The notes below the pieces were generated by a model. That model worked only from the letters and a program-made list of their open reading frames with translations, ran no database searches and was not told the origin of the DNA. From the NCBI GenBank assembly GCA_020724775.1, contig DYGG01000021.1, forward strand, positions 1 to 51,885: 51,885 nt of DNA, written 5' to 3'. This document shows, in pieces, positions 8,634 through 13,617 of the stretch; the stretch's first letter is position 1, and every line of letters begins with the position of its first letter. Source of the stretch: Ignavibacterium sp. Its GTDB lineage: Bacteria; Zixibacteria; MSB-5A5; GN15; PGXB01. The position numbers and the translations under genes were made by a program.

Positions 8634-9854
8634 TTGAGCCTTAATCTTGAATTTCCTGATGATTCTGTGCCGGAATCATTGAAAGTTCTGTTTATCACCC
8701 ATAATTACATCCGCTTCAAGGGGGATTTTGCCGGCGTGTTTCTGCATCTTCTGGCGCGCAAACTCCGCGAGCAGGGTCTGGAGGTGATAGTGGTCGCCCC
8801 TCATGATGCCTCTTTTGCCGATTCGGAAACTATCGATGGCATCCGGGTTTTCCGGTTCCGGTACGCCCCCGAGCATAAAGAGACTTTTGCCTACCGGGGG
8901 GATATGCATCGGCAGTTGCTGCGAAACCCGCTGCGGATTTTTCGCCTGCTTCGCTTCCTCAATACCGGATATAAACTGGCGCGGGAAATCATCGAGAAAG
9001 AGGAAATAAAAGTTGTCTCCGTGCACTGGGTCGTTCCGAACGGAATAATCGGATACCGATTGAAAAGGAGATTCAAAGATAAGATTCGACTGGTGCTCAG
9101 TTCACATGGCACTGATGTCCGATTGATTACAGAATATAAACTGCTGATGCGTCTTTTCCGCCCGGTTGTAAGAGCCTGCCGCCGATGGACGGTGGTTTCG
9201 AGTTTCCTTAAAGAGAAGATTTCCGCTCGCGATTATGAAGCGGCTGGAAAAGTGCAGGTGGTGCCGTTGCCGAATGATGAATCGCTGTTTTATCCTGATG
9301 ACCGGATTCGGCGGGAGCCGTCGCTGGTAGTATCAGTTTCGCGGTTGACGGTCCAAAAGCGGCTGCCGATTCTCTTTCAGGCGATTAAACTTGCCTCCCG
9401 TGATATTTCGGGATTGAAACTTGAAGTCTATGGCACCGGTCCGGAGAAATTCCGACTGGAGCGGATGATTACCGATATCGGATTAGAGGGGAGAGTCTCC
9501 CTTGTGGAGCCGCTTCCCCAACGGGAATTGCGACGGGTTTACAATCGCGCCACCGTTGTGGTGTTAAACTCCGTGGAGGAGGGGTTTGGTCTGGCTTTGA
9601 CCGAAGCGATGCTCTGCCGCACGGCAGTCATTGGCGCCCGCTCCGGGGGAATTCTGGATATTATAGAGGACAGAAGAACCGGTCTGCTTGTCCCACCCGA
9701 TAATCCCGAACTGCTTGCCGAAGCGATAAAACTGTTAATCAAAGATTCTGAGATGCGGTCACGGCTTGCCGAGGAAGGGTACCATTCGGCTTTGAAGAGA
9801 TTCATCGCGACCGCGACCGCCCGCCAGTACGCCGAAATCTTCAAGTCGGCTTGA
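8634..9854 (+). CDS. Glycosyltransferase family 4 (group 1) protein
   Basis: The 406-residue enzyme has a GT-B fold with two Rossmann domains. The N-terminal acceptor domain starts 'KVLFITHNYIRFKGDFAG'. The C-terminal donor domain has 'SVSRLTVQKRLPILFQAI' and the nucleotide-sugar motif EEGFGLALTEAM, with the family's paired glutamates. Members are retaining transferases that use nucleotide sugars for lipopolysaccharide, glycolipid or exopolysaccharide synthesis at the cytoplasmic face of the membrane. The start is TTG, supported by GGAG at 8625-8628. Its partner gene is not obvious: gatE lies downstream, convergent, 11 bases away. Confidence 0.9.
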   Translation: MSLNLEFPDDSVPESLKVLFITHNYIRFKGDFAGVFLHLLARKLREQGLEVIVVAPHDASFADSETIDGIRVFRFRYAPEHKETFAYRGDMHRQLLRNPLRIFRLLRFLNTGYKLAREIIEKEEIKVVSVHWVVPNGIIGYRLKRRFKDKIRLVLSSHGTDVRLITEYKLLMRLFRPVVRACRRWTVVSSFLKEKISARDYEAAGKVQVVPLPNDESLFYPDDRIRREPSLVVSVSRLTVQKRLPILFQAIKLASRDISGLKLEVYGTGPEKFRLERMITDIGLEGRVSLVEPLPQRELRRVYNRATVVVLNSVEEGFGLALTEAMLCRTAVIGARSGGILDIIEDRRTGLLVPPDNPELLAEAIKLLIKDSEMRSRLAEEGYHSALKRFIATATARQYAEIFKSA

Positions 9855-9865
9855 AGAGCCCCCGA

Positions 9866-11779
9866 TCATTTTGCTTTCGATAATTGTGAGTCAACCCGGC
9901 TGAGAATCTCTCTTAAGTCGGCTGGAAACCGCCCCAGCAATTGACCCACCACAAAACGCCGAAGTTTATTCCGATGATTTTCTGTTGTTCTTCCGGAGAA
10001 TGCCTTCTCCGCGTACCTCCAGACTTTCTCGAAGGCATCGCTGGTCAATTTGCCGTTATCGGCAGAGACCTGTTTCTCTCCGCTATCCTCGGCGAGTAAG
10101 AGATTCTTGACCTGGCGATAGGGCAGGTCATTTTCAAGGGTCGTTCTAAAAATATTAAGAATTTCGGAATTACCAGGACGCCGGGAGACAAACCCCTGGC
10201 GGTGCAATGCCACCATCAGCGCTGTGCAGAGATGCGCCGCCCGTCGCGCCTTACCCGGTATTTCGGCGGCGAGTTGCTCAAATGCCCCGACAAAGGGGGA
10301 GAGCGAAAGCGCGTTTATCTGCTCTTGATGAAGCCCCATCTTTGCCCAGCGTGCCTGTTTCTCCCAGAGCGGCTCACCGACTTTGCCCCGGTTGGCAGTC
10401 ACCCGCTCCTCGGTTATCCTGACCGGCGGATGGTCGGTATCGGGATACATTCGGTCAGGTCCCGGTAGAATCCGCTCAAAATCAGTAGTGCCGTCTTTCA
10501 TATCCTGACGGGTCTCGTGAATCACCCCTTGCGCCAGTTCCGCTATCCTGATTTTGATTTCATTGATGGCGGTGGCAACGTCGGCGGATGGACCGCAAAT
10601 CAAAACGATATCATCCTTCTCTCTCCACCCCAGTGAAGTCTGGCATTCCTGCCATTTTCGGTCAGGAATGTCGTACTGCCGGCGGCGCGAGTAGAAAAAC
10701 AGATTTGGCTTGCTGTCGATGCAGGCAATAACCCTTATCCGTCCCATCAATTCTGAGCCGAAATTCCAATTCGGCTGAAGCGGGGTGGTAATATATTCGG
10801 CAAGCCCGGGGAGAAGGAGGGCTACCACTTTCAGAGGCTGGTCGCTTTCCAGGCGGCGGCCGATAGTGTTGCCGGCACCGCTGAATATGGCGGTGAGATT
10901 GTCTTCTTTATACGATATGGATGCCGGAACGGGAAACTGACGGTTGAATTTCTCCTGAAGTTCCAGAAGTCCTTTCTGACGCAGCGCTTCATAAGCCGTC
11001 AACGCCCGAATATTCCCCACCTTATAGACACCTTTGATTTCGACCCGTTTGCCGCCGGTAATCGAAACATTGACATCCTGACGCACCGTACCGATACCTC
11101 TCCGAACCAGCCCGGTAATCTTCATGGAGTTTCCGAGCAGACGGCAGACTTCCTCCGCCTCAATCGGATTTCTCATATCGGAACCGGTTATGATCTCGAC
11201 CAGGGGAGTGGACAGACGGTCGGTGGCGAAAGTTATAACATGCCCGATATCCGAAATCTCCCGGCAGGCTTCCTCCTCCAGATTTACCTGGGTAATAGTT
11301 ATCTTGCGCGCTTTGTACGGCACCCAGCCATCGACGCCGATTATCATTGTCCGTTGAAAGCCGGTCGGAATGGAGCCGTCAAGATACTGCTTCCTGATGA
11401 CATGAATCTCATCGACGATTTTACAATTGAAGAGAAGGGCAATCTGGATGGCATAATCGACCGCCTGCTGGTTAACCAGAAAAGGGGGGGTATCATCCAT
11501 CTCGTACGTGCAGGTGCGGTCGCGGTAAAGGCGGTAGATAACCTCTTTTTTCGTTTTGAACTCCATCAGCGCCGTACCGTCGTACTCTCCCAGTTCCGAC
11601 AGAGTCGGACGCATGTGACGGAGAATTTCGGCGTCGTGGCGCCGTTTAGTCAAACCGACCGGGCAGTGGCAGAAGAGTTTTTTTTCGGTCGCTACCTGCT
11701 GGTGAATCTCCAGCCCGCACTTGAAGCCGAGGGATTCAAAGAGCGCCGGGTCATTTATGTCAACCTTACCGAAGTCCAT
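9866..11779 (-). CDS. gatE: Archaeal-type Glu-tRNA(Gln) amidotransferase subunit E
   Basis: The 637-residue protein matches GatE, the tRNA-dependent kinase/transamidase subunit of GatDE that converts Glu-tRNA(Gln) to Gln-tRNA(Gln). The GatB/E core shows LEIHQQ, KLFCHC, RPTLSELG, RKQYLDGSIPTGFQRT and LEEEACR in order within the first 220 residues. The segment from about 290 to 430 is the extra aspartyl-tRNA-synthetase-like insertion that separates GatE from GatB, and a YqeY-like helical tail ends the protein. GatDE was described as an archaeal enzyme, so its presence in a plainly bacterial segment is unusual. No gatD (asparaginase-like partner) is in the window. There is no Shine-Dalgarno; a TATATT lies 10 bases before the ATG. 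Confidence 0.88.
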   Translation of the reverse strand: MDFGKVDINDPALFESLGFKCGLEIHQQVATEKKLFCHCPVGLTKRRHDAEILRHMRPTLSELGEYDGTALMEFKTKKEVIYRLYRDRTCTYEMDDTPPFLVNQQAVDYAIQIALLFNCKIVDEIHVIRKQYLDGSIPTGFQRTMIIGVDGWVPYKARKITITQVNLEEEACREISDIGHVITFATDRLSTPLVEIITGSDMRNPIEAEEVCRLLGNSMKITGLVRRGIGTVRQDVNVSITGGKRVEIKGVYKVGNIRALTAYEALRQKGLLELQEKFNRQFPVPASISYKEDNLTAIFSGAGNTIGRRLESDQPLKVVALLLPGLAEYITTPLQPNWNFGSELMGRIRVIACIDSKPNLFFYSRRRQYDIPDRKWQECQTSLGWREKDDIVLICGPSADVATAINEIKIRIAELAQGVIHETRQDMKDGTTDFERILPGPDRMYPDTDHPPVRITEERVTANRGKVGEPLWEKQARWAKMGLHQEQINALSLSPFVGAFEQLAAEIPGKARRAAHLCTALMVALHRQGFVSRRPGNSEILNIFRTTLENDLPYRQVKNLLLAEDSGEKQVSADNGKLTSDAFEKVWRYAEKAFSGRTTENHRNKLRRFVVGQLLGRFPADLREILSRVDSQLSKAK

Positions 11780-11905: not shown

Positions 11906-12625
11906 ATGGGATCCATTGAAGTAATCATCGACCGTCAACTTCGCCGTTGGGAAATGGAGCAGAGGAAAAAGGCGGAGGAAGAAAAGAGGGGAGAGTGCGG
12001 CGCGATTCGTCCCATTGTCACGGTCAGCCGTCAGCGCGGAAGCCGCGGCGCATATCTCGCGGAACGTCTTGCCGAAAAACTCGGGTATCAACTCCTGCAT
12101 CGCGAGGTAATCGACCATATCTGCAACTCCACCGGATATCACCGCCAGATAATCAAATCGCTCGACGACAAAGTCCGCTCCCGTATTGAACTCTGGTTTG
12201 AAGGGGTGTTCAAAGGGCTGTATGTCGATTCCTCCGACTATTTCCGTCACCTTTACAAGGTGATGATCTCGATAGCGGAACTGGGGGGAGTGGTTGTGGT
12301 CGGTCGGGCGGCCAATTTCATTCTGGGGCGCGACCGGGTTTTCAGTATCCGTGTGGTTGCCTCGCTTCCTCGTCGTCTCGAAAATCTCATTCAGTATCAG
12401 AACCTGACTCGCGAGCAGGCGGAAAAAGATATTCGTGAGACCGACCGCGAGCGGCAGGAGTTCGTGCGCAGTCACTTTCGCCAGGATATCGATTCCCCCG
12501 GCGCCTACGACCTGGTCATCAACACCACTTATATCGACCTCGAATCGGCTCTAACGCTGGCTGAAACCGGAATAAAATCGAAATGGCGCGCTCTGGGAAT
12601 CGCGACCGCGCCGTTTGCGGAATGA
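11906..12625 (+). CDS. Cytidylate kinase-like family protein
   Basis: The 239-residue protein has a phosphate-binding segment 'VTVSRQRGSRGAYLAERLAEKLGY' at about residues 36-60, then 'LLHREVIDHIC'. These are features of the cytidylate-kinase-like (AAA_33/Cytidylate_kin_2) group. An arginine-rich lid region ('RETDRERQEFVR') follows near residue 180, and the end resembles nucleoside monophosphate kinases ('YDLVINTTYIDLESAL'). The group is related to CMP kinase, but the substrate of this branch is not established, so it should not be named cmk. GAGGAGGG at 11893-11900 gives a strong ribosome binding site. It diverges from gatE and precedes the lysine-rich microprotein cassette. Confidence 0.85.
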   Translation: MGSIEVIIDRQLRRWEMEQRKKAEEEKRGECGAIRPIVTVSRQRGSRGAYLAERLAEKLGYQLLHREVIDHICNSTGYHRQIIKSLDDKVRSRIELWFEGVFKGLYVDSSDYFRHLYKVMISIAELGGVVVVGRAANFILGRDRVFSIRVVASLPRRLENLIQYQNLTREQAEKDIRETDRERQEFVRSHFRQDIDSPGAYDLVINTTYIDLESALTLAETGIKSKWRALGIATAPFAE

Positions 12626-13257: not shown

Positions 13258-13617
13258 ATGCCAATGAAGAAAGCCAAGAAGCTGGCCAAGAAGAAAGCGC
13301 CGGCGAAAAAGAAAGCACCTAAGAAGAAAGCGCCTGCGAAGAAAGTAGCCAAGAAGAAAACCGCCCGCAAGCCGAACCCGGCATTTATGAGACCGATGCA
13401 GCCGGATGAATACCTCGGCGCCGTGGTGGGTATGAAGGCGATGCCGCGTACGGAAATTACCAAGAAGCTCTGGGACTACATCAAGAAGAATAAACTTCAG
13501 GATTCAGTCAACAAGAGAATGATCAACGCGGATGAATCCCTCAAGGCAGTCTTTGGCGGCAAGAGACAGGTCAGCATGTTTGAAATGACCAAGTTGATTG
13601 CCAAGCATATGAAATAG
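13258..13617 (+). CDS. SWIB/MDM2-domain protein with lysine-rich tail
   Basis: The 119-residue protein has two parts. Residues 1-38 are a lysine/alanine/proline tail like the two microproteins upstream. Residues about 45-118 form a SWIB domain with the family hallmarks 'MPRTEITKKLWDYIKKNKLQD', 'INADESLKAVFGG' and 'VSMFEMTKLIAKHM'. SWIB domains occur in chromatin remodelling complexes in eukaryotes. In bacteria such as chlamydiae they occur alone or fused to topoisomerase. A role in chromosome compaction or topology is inferred. AAAGGAGG (13244-13251) lies 6 bases before the ATG. A strong terminator ends the cassette 24 bases after the stop. Confidence 0.9.
   Translation: MPMKKAKKLAKKKAPAKKKAPKKKAPAKKVAKKKTARKPNPAFMRPMQPDEYLGAVVGMKAMPRTEITKKLWDYIKKNKLQDSVNKRMINADESLKAVFGGKRQVSMFEMTKLIAKHMK

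Follow-up and report, generated by a model that had tools for sequence, protein, structure and literature searches.

In archaea, GatDE supplies Gln-tRNA because GlnRS is absent. A 2022 review describes GatDE as nowadays restricted to archaea, links that restriction to the lack of GlnRS and to co-evolution with the tRNA(Gln) of archaea, and gives the A1:U72 pair of tRNA(Gln) as the feature recognized by the archaeal enzyme (PMC9499178). According to a 2014 paper no known bacterium encodes both routes to Gln-tRNA (PMC4206432), and elsewhere a discriminating GluRS was inferred where GlnRS is present and GatCAB absent, with GatDE left unmentioned (PMC3927822). No report of bacterial GatDE was found in the open-access literature, and the occurrence of GatDE together with GlnRS seems to be undescribed; the genes themselves are likely labelled in databases, since the automatic NCBIfam annotation would already name such proteins GatE.

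The window analysed here is a whole stretch of 51,885 nucleotides from a bacterial genome of the phylum Zixibacteria (G000, 95.7% complete). An intact open reading frame, gatE, is located on the minus strand at positions 9866 to 11779, with the ATG at 11779, the stop codon at 9866-9868 and 637 codons for a product of 637 aa. A preliminary description, made from the letters alone, had attributed a GatE core to this product, and this was borne out by both curated NCBIfam GatE equivalog profiles: NF003107 was matched with 459.4 bits at a cut-off of 456, which is a narrow margin, and TIGR00134 with 392.8 bits at a cut-off of 319.6. The best GatB profile, named beforehand as a possible better match, reached at most 134.5 bits, far under its cut-off of 338. 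The top PDB relatives were the archaeal GatE entries 2d6f (E 4e-80) and 1zq1 (E 2e-79), followed by GatB at 1e-20. The product is GatE, not GatB.

The first part of the GatB/GatE catalytic (cradle) domain was assigned by PF02934 to positions 10928 to 11722 (minus strand) and carries the residues E24, H26, E168 and E195. These align with E13, H15, E157 and E184 of M. thermautotrophicus, which we take to be the catalytic set of the archaeal GatE structure, and the four Glu/His positions are identical in 72/72 GatE and 15/15 GatB sequences aligned. The PF02934 model of 277 positions is stretched across 441 residues of the product, so that the catalytic domain is interrupted, and from this spread and from Foldseek matches to AspRS an AspRS-like (GAD) insert was placed inside it at about residues 285-412 (10544 to 10927, minus strand, approximate limits). 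Pfam GAD itself was undetected in the window GatE and matched weakly in the relative L035. The AlphaFold model of the window GatE (mean pLDDT 86.9, alignment of 46 sequences) gave 1zq1_C, the P. abyssi GatE, as the best Foldseek match with a TM of 0.83 by target; 2d6f was also close, GatB ranked lower, and the matches to aspartyl-tRNA synthetase were weak, as expected from the AspRS-like insert. The AspRS-like segment without counterpart in GatB that had been noticed at the outset was thereby confirmed. In place of the YqeY-like tail, an apparently diverged helical C-terminal region, all-helical in the model, is located at about residues 475-637 (9869 to 10357, minus strand); a Pfam match to PF02637 is absent across the window GatE family and present in the relatives L035, L057 and L064.

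As for the context of gatE, a glycosyltransferase family 4 gene (Pfam) is located at 8634 to 9854 and a cytidylate-kinase-like gene (PF13189) at 11906 to 12625, both on the plus strand, and no gatD lies alongside, as had been stated before. Four related genomes share the order glycosyltransferase, gatE, cytidylate-kinase-like gene and SWIB gene, and base composition gave no sign of a foreign origin of gatE. That the gene is a misidentified GatB, or stems from contamination or from a contig chimeric at gatE, as had been considered for the last case, is refuted by the profile scores, by a separate true GatB gene in the same genome and by the gene order repeated in sister genomes, including the single-contig genome G007, and this reading retains practically no probability. 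The presence of gatE on this contig is no assembly artefact. Among the neighbours of gatE, the SWIB gene, located at 13258-13617 on the plus strand, is conserved best, with an identity of 67-90% across related genomes; its small product begins with a histone-H1-like stretch rich in Lys, Ala and Pro and has a SWIB/MDM2 domain (97.9 bits).

A genome-wide search for gatD, gatCAB, glnS and the types of GltX, as suggested in the preliminary description, yielded gatD, GatB, GlnRS and one bacterial GltX in G000. The gatD gene (L167:10832-12214, contig 79) is located between mfd and secA, unlinked to gatE, and scored 518.6 bits with the curated profile (cut-off 324); the GatD active-site residues T, T, D and K are intact in G000 and identical in 40/40 sequences, both archaeal ones included. 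GlnRS was detected with 767 bits (cut-off 425.8), so that the lack of GlnRS typical of the archaeal GatDE pathway is not found here, and Y211, C229 and Q255 (E. coli GlnRS positions), which we take to be glutamine-pocket residues, are visible in its sequence. Beside glnS, an uninterrupted open frame of 2287 codons was observed (L168:1-6861, minus strand); the sister genome G001 has a corresponding frame next to its own glnS. The single GltX gene scored 548.6 bits as the bacterial type and did not pass the archaeal GluRS model. GatA was not found in the 95.7% complete genome; since gatA is close to gatB in G001 and the GatB gene of G000 sits near a contig end, gatA of G000 is probably located in an assembly gap. 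AsnRS is encoded as well (623.5 bits), and Asn-tRNA therefore needs no amidotransferase; GatDE as the needed Asn-tRNA enzyme was ruled out by AsnRS in G000 and in G008, a genome without GatB.

Since the cell has GlnRS too, GatDE most likely acts beside it as a second or a corrective route, converting Glu-tRNA(Gln) to Gln-tRNA(Gln), and this is the reading that we consider probable, if by no means secure. GatE and the separately encoded GatD would form a bacterial amidotransferase in which GatD would free ammonia from glutamine (or asparagine), and GatE would use ATP to activate the side-chain carboxylate of the tRNA(Gln)-bound Glu, which it would amidate to give Gln-tRNA(Gln). The substrate Glu-tRNA(Gln) may be made by GltX or by an error of GlnRS, and would be corrected by GatDE to the right product. 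The basis of the proposal is the presence of both subunits, the conserved catalytic residues, the co-inheritance of GatD and GatE, the co-occurrence with GlnRS and the bacterial tRNA(Gln), from which we infer complex formation, activity, substrate and corrective role of bacterial GatDE. Correction of a small flow of Glu-tRNA(Gln) and an alternative route are, taken together, favoured over any other service. The identity of GatE, gatD in the same genome, the invariant active sites of both subunits, the presence of AsnRS and the single GltX gene speak for a second or corrective route, whereas GlnRS makes the GatDE reaction dispensable for decoding. The preliminary suggestion of a lineage that uses GatDE stood in part: a gatD gene is present in the same genome, but use of the enzyme for Gln-tRNA is at most probable, GlnRS and GatB being encoded there as well.

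A scan of the GTDB collection with short exact peptide patterns yielded at least 263 GatE relatives, the best 80 of which all come from records with bacterial titles and represent Zixibacteria, Ignavibacteria, Bacteroidota, Calditrichia, KSB1, Latescibacteria, Fermentibacteria, Aminicenantes and other Acidobacteria, WOR-3, Krumholzibacteria, Elusimicrobia, Myxococcota and others. GatE with GatD is thus found in many bacterial phyla, not in one odd lineage as had been suggested. Among the 47 of these genomes that were tested, GatD was above the cut-off in 44, GlnRS in 35 (in one further genome just below the cut-off at a contig edge), and a clear GatB was found in 23. The gatD gene lies directly downstream of gatE in 58/80 bacterial loci (best 80 of 263). 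Moreover, glnS, gatE and gatD are adjacent in L310 and L311, where the coordinates place gltX at a distance of about 2.5-4.5 kb, and gatE, gatD and glnS are adjacent in L312. This clustering with glnS and gltX points to a tie of GatDE to Glu/Gln-tRNA charging and supports the second or corrective route. It argues against a shift of bacterial GatDE to another substrate (another misacylated tRNA, an amino acid carried by tRNA but not used in translation, or an acceptor other than tRNA), by which the amidation chemistry would be kept and Gln-tRNA made by GlnRS, and which we regard as unlikely. The diverged tail domain of the window GatE family would agree with such a shift, whereas the conserved catalytic and AspRS-like parts would not, nor would the occurrence of GatDE in G136 and in about ten genomes from other phyla in which no GlnRS was detected and Glu-tRNA(Gln) is available. 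Most Fermentibacteria genomes have GlnRS and GatD and no full GatB. G056 of this group, in which neither GlnRS nor GatB was found, was rejected as a GatDE-only bacterium, as nearly all close relatives have GlnRS and its GlnRS gene is probably missing through incomplete assembly; G129 was rejected likewise, as the end of one of its contigs carries a fragment of GlnRS. A plasmid of Natrinema thermotolerans was noticed to have a GatE-like frame (L211:3887-5329) that is unannotated, stays open for no more than 481 aa and is perhaps broken.

For the phylum of the window, 83 genomes, each at least 90% complete, were surveyed. Here and elsewhere in the analysis many genomes are metagenome assemblies; a gene scored as absent is less certain than one scored as present. 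GatE is present in 52/83 genomes, with GlnRS above the cut-off in 48, as fragments in 3 and not detected in 1 (G136); for the 31/83 genomes without GatE the corresponding numbers are 15, 2 and 14. GlnRS thus accompanies GatE in 51/52 genomes and occurs in 17/31 without it (Fisher p about 1e-6 in a plain count ignoring kinship). The kinship-corrected test of this association gave the right direction without significance and was underpowered, 2-3 of 8 independent pairs being informative and none contrary, and this outcome weighs against the second or corrective route. So does the distribution in the GlnRS-less lineages of the phylum, where the need for a Glu-tRNA(Gln) amidotransferase is greatest: GatE is missing from all but one, and Gln-tRNA is obtained via GatCAB. 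The other-substrate explanation gains from the presence of GlnRS in 51/52 GatE-bearing genomes and from several lineages that lack both GatE and GlnRS. GlnRS and GatE without GatB were found in 28/83 genomes, and the near-complete genomes G078 and G117 have kept GlnRS with both GatE and GatB missing. G136 (L315, L317), which has no GlnRS, was observed to carry an Acidobacteria-type GatDE together with its own GatB and lends itself to comparison.

The GltX tree follows kinship, with the GlnRS-less lineages nested among the GlnRS-bearing ones and no gene replacement between them. The GlnRS-less relatives must have a GltX that charges tRNA(Gln), so that in some lineages this task must fall to the same GltX gene, which also speaks for the second or corrective route. 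That the same gene must be non-discriminating in these sister lineages lends something to the view that GatDE and a non-discriminating GltX are the main Gln-tRNA route of the cell, GlnRS being auxiliary, for example when glutamine is plentiful. Arg at Thermus-358, numbered on what we take to be the Thermus GluRS sequence, was found in all groups and discarded as an uninformative marker of discriminating GluRS; its failure to separate the groups also suits this view. G078, G117 and others, however, keep GlnRS without GatE and GatB, so that GlnRS suffices there. A comparison of GltX (L165:904-2355) with the GltX of 48 other genomes furthermore revealed a Trp-ended segment of the anticodon domain, TTKYWLETRW, in 35/36 GlnRS-bearing genomes and in 2/13 without detected GlnRS, both of which may simply be incomplete genomes. 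This segment may be a candidate mark of a GltX that rejects tRNA(Gln) in GlnRS-bearing cells; it points to discrimination, and GatDE as the main route is in our judgement rather improbable. The same segment also tells against the second or corrective route, as GltX in these cells may already reject tRNA(Gln). The tRNA-Gln(CTG) genes of G000 and its relatives, the CTG genes being those found, are of the bacterial type with U1:A72 and G73, and not of the archaeal-pathway type with A1:U72 and A73. Given that archaeal GatDE reads A1:U72 (PMC9499178), U1:A72 is a further point against a second or corrective route, and the lack of A1:U72 and A73 one in favour of another substrate.

The ancestry of the pair was analysed with FastTree trees of GatE and GatD (SH-like support values). 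In the GatB-rooted GatE tree, the 69 bacterial GatEs cluster together (0.90), and this cluster lies next to, not within, the three archaeal sequences (0.99). The proposed phylogeny of GatE and GatB thus placed the bacterial proteins next to archaeal GatE, but no nesting within archaea was seen with three archaeal sequences. Three GatE types exist inside the phylum, namely the window family, a gatE-gatD operon type and the G136 type grouping with Acidobacteria (1.0); transfer of GatDE between bacteria is indicated by these three types in one phylum. As to the ancient transfer suggested earlier, a tree with three archaeal sequences is too small to tell it from common ancestry or to give direction and age. 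The GatD tree repeats the grouping of the GatE tree, and from this match the two genes are inherited together, moving and persisting as a pair even where unlinked, as in the window family. That GatDE is a transfer relic, neutral and not selected for any role, would be in keeping with its nominal redundancy to GlnRS (and to GatCAB in genomes that have it) and with patchy losses, but is very improbable in view of this co-inheritance of an unlinked pair, of catalytic residues invariant across many phyla, and of the gene and its synteny being kept at about 65% protein identity in the window GatE family.

It may well be, although we put it forward tentatively, that GatDE is common among bacteria and coupled there to GlnRS, that we have here the first bacterial case of two dedicated routes to Gln-tRNA(Gln) in a single cell, and that the enzyme serves quality control of mischarged Glu-tRNA(Gln) or a new substrate and is not an archaeal-style sole supplier. 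The occurrence of GatDE beside the ordinary bacterial enzyme for the same task recurs in many other bacterial groups. An unsought GatDE weakens the type of discriminating-GluRS inference made in PMC3927822 for 28/83 genomes, GatDE beside GlnRS makes the coexistence of GlnRS and an amidotransferase route testable, and bacterial GatDE bears on whether GatDE was present in the last common ancestor or moved later.

Compared with the archaeal GatDE of M. thermautotrophicus (2d6f) and P. abyssi (1zq1), the bacterial system is alike in its two subunits, curated families, fold and catalytic residues of GatE and GatD. It differs in its bacterial host with GlnRS, bacterial-type GltX and a tRNA(Gln) that has U1:A72 and G73 where the archaeal one has A1:U72 and A73, in its separation from the three archaeal sequences when the tree is rooted on GatB and, in the window family, in the unlinked gatD. 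Bacterial GatCAB with a non-discriminating GluRS shares the homologous kinase/transamidase core (GatB) and the same expected product, and works with U1:A72 tRNA; GatE, in contrast, has the AspRS-like insert and pairs with the asparaginase-type GatD instead of the amidase GatA, whereas GatCAB also serves Asn-tRNA, and G000 has its own GatB gene as well. A further comparison is with bacteria that have GlnRS and GatCAB (Deinococcus, Thermus, Bdellovibrio; PMC4206432), in which direct GlnRS and a tRNA-dependent amidotransferase likewise occur in one cell. There, however, the amidotransferase is explained by Asn-tRNA formation, and this explanation does not transfer to the present case because Glu-tRNA(Gln) is the known substrate of archaeal GatDE and G000 encodes AsnRS.
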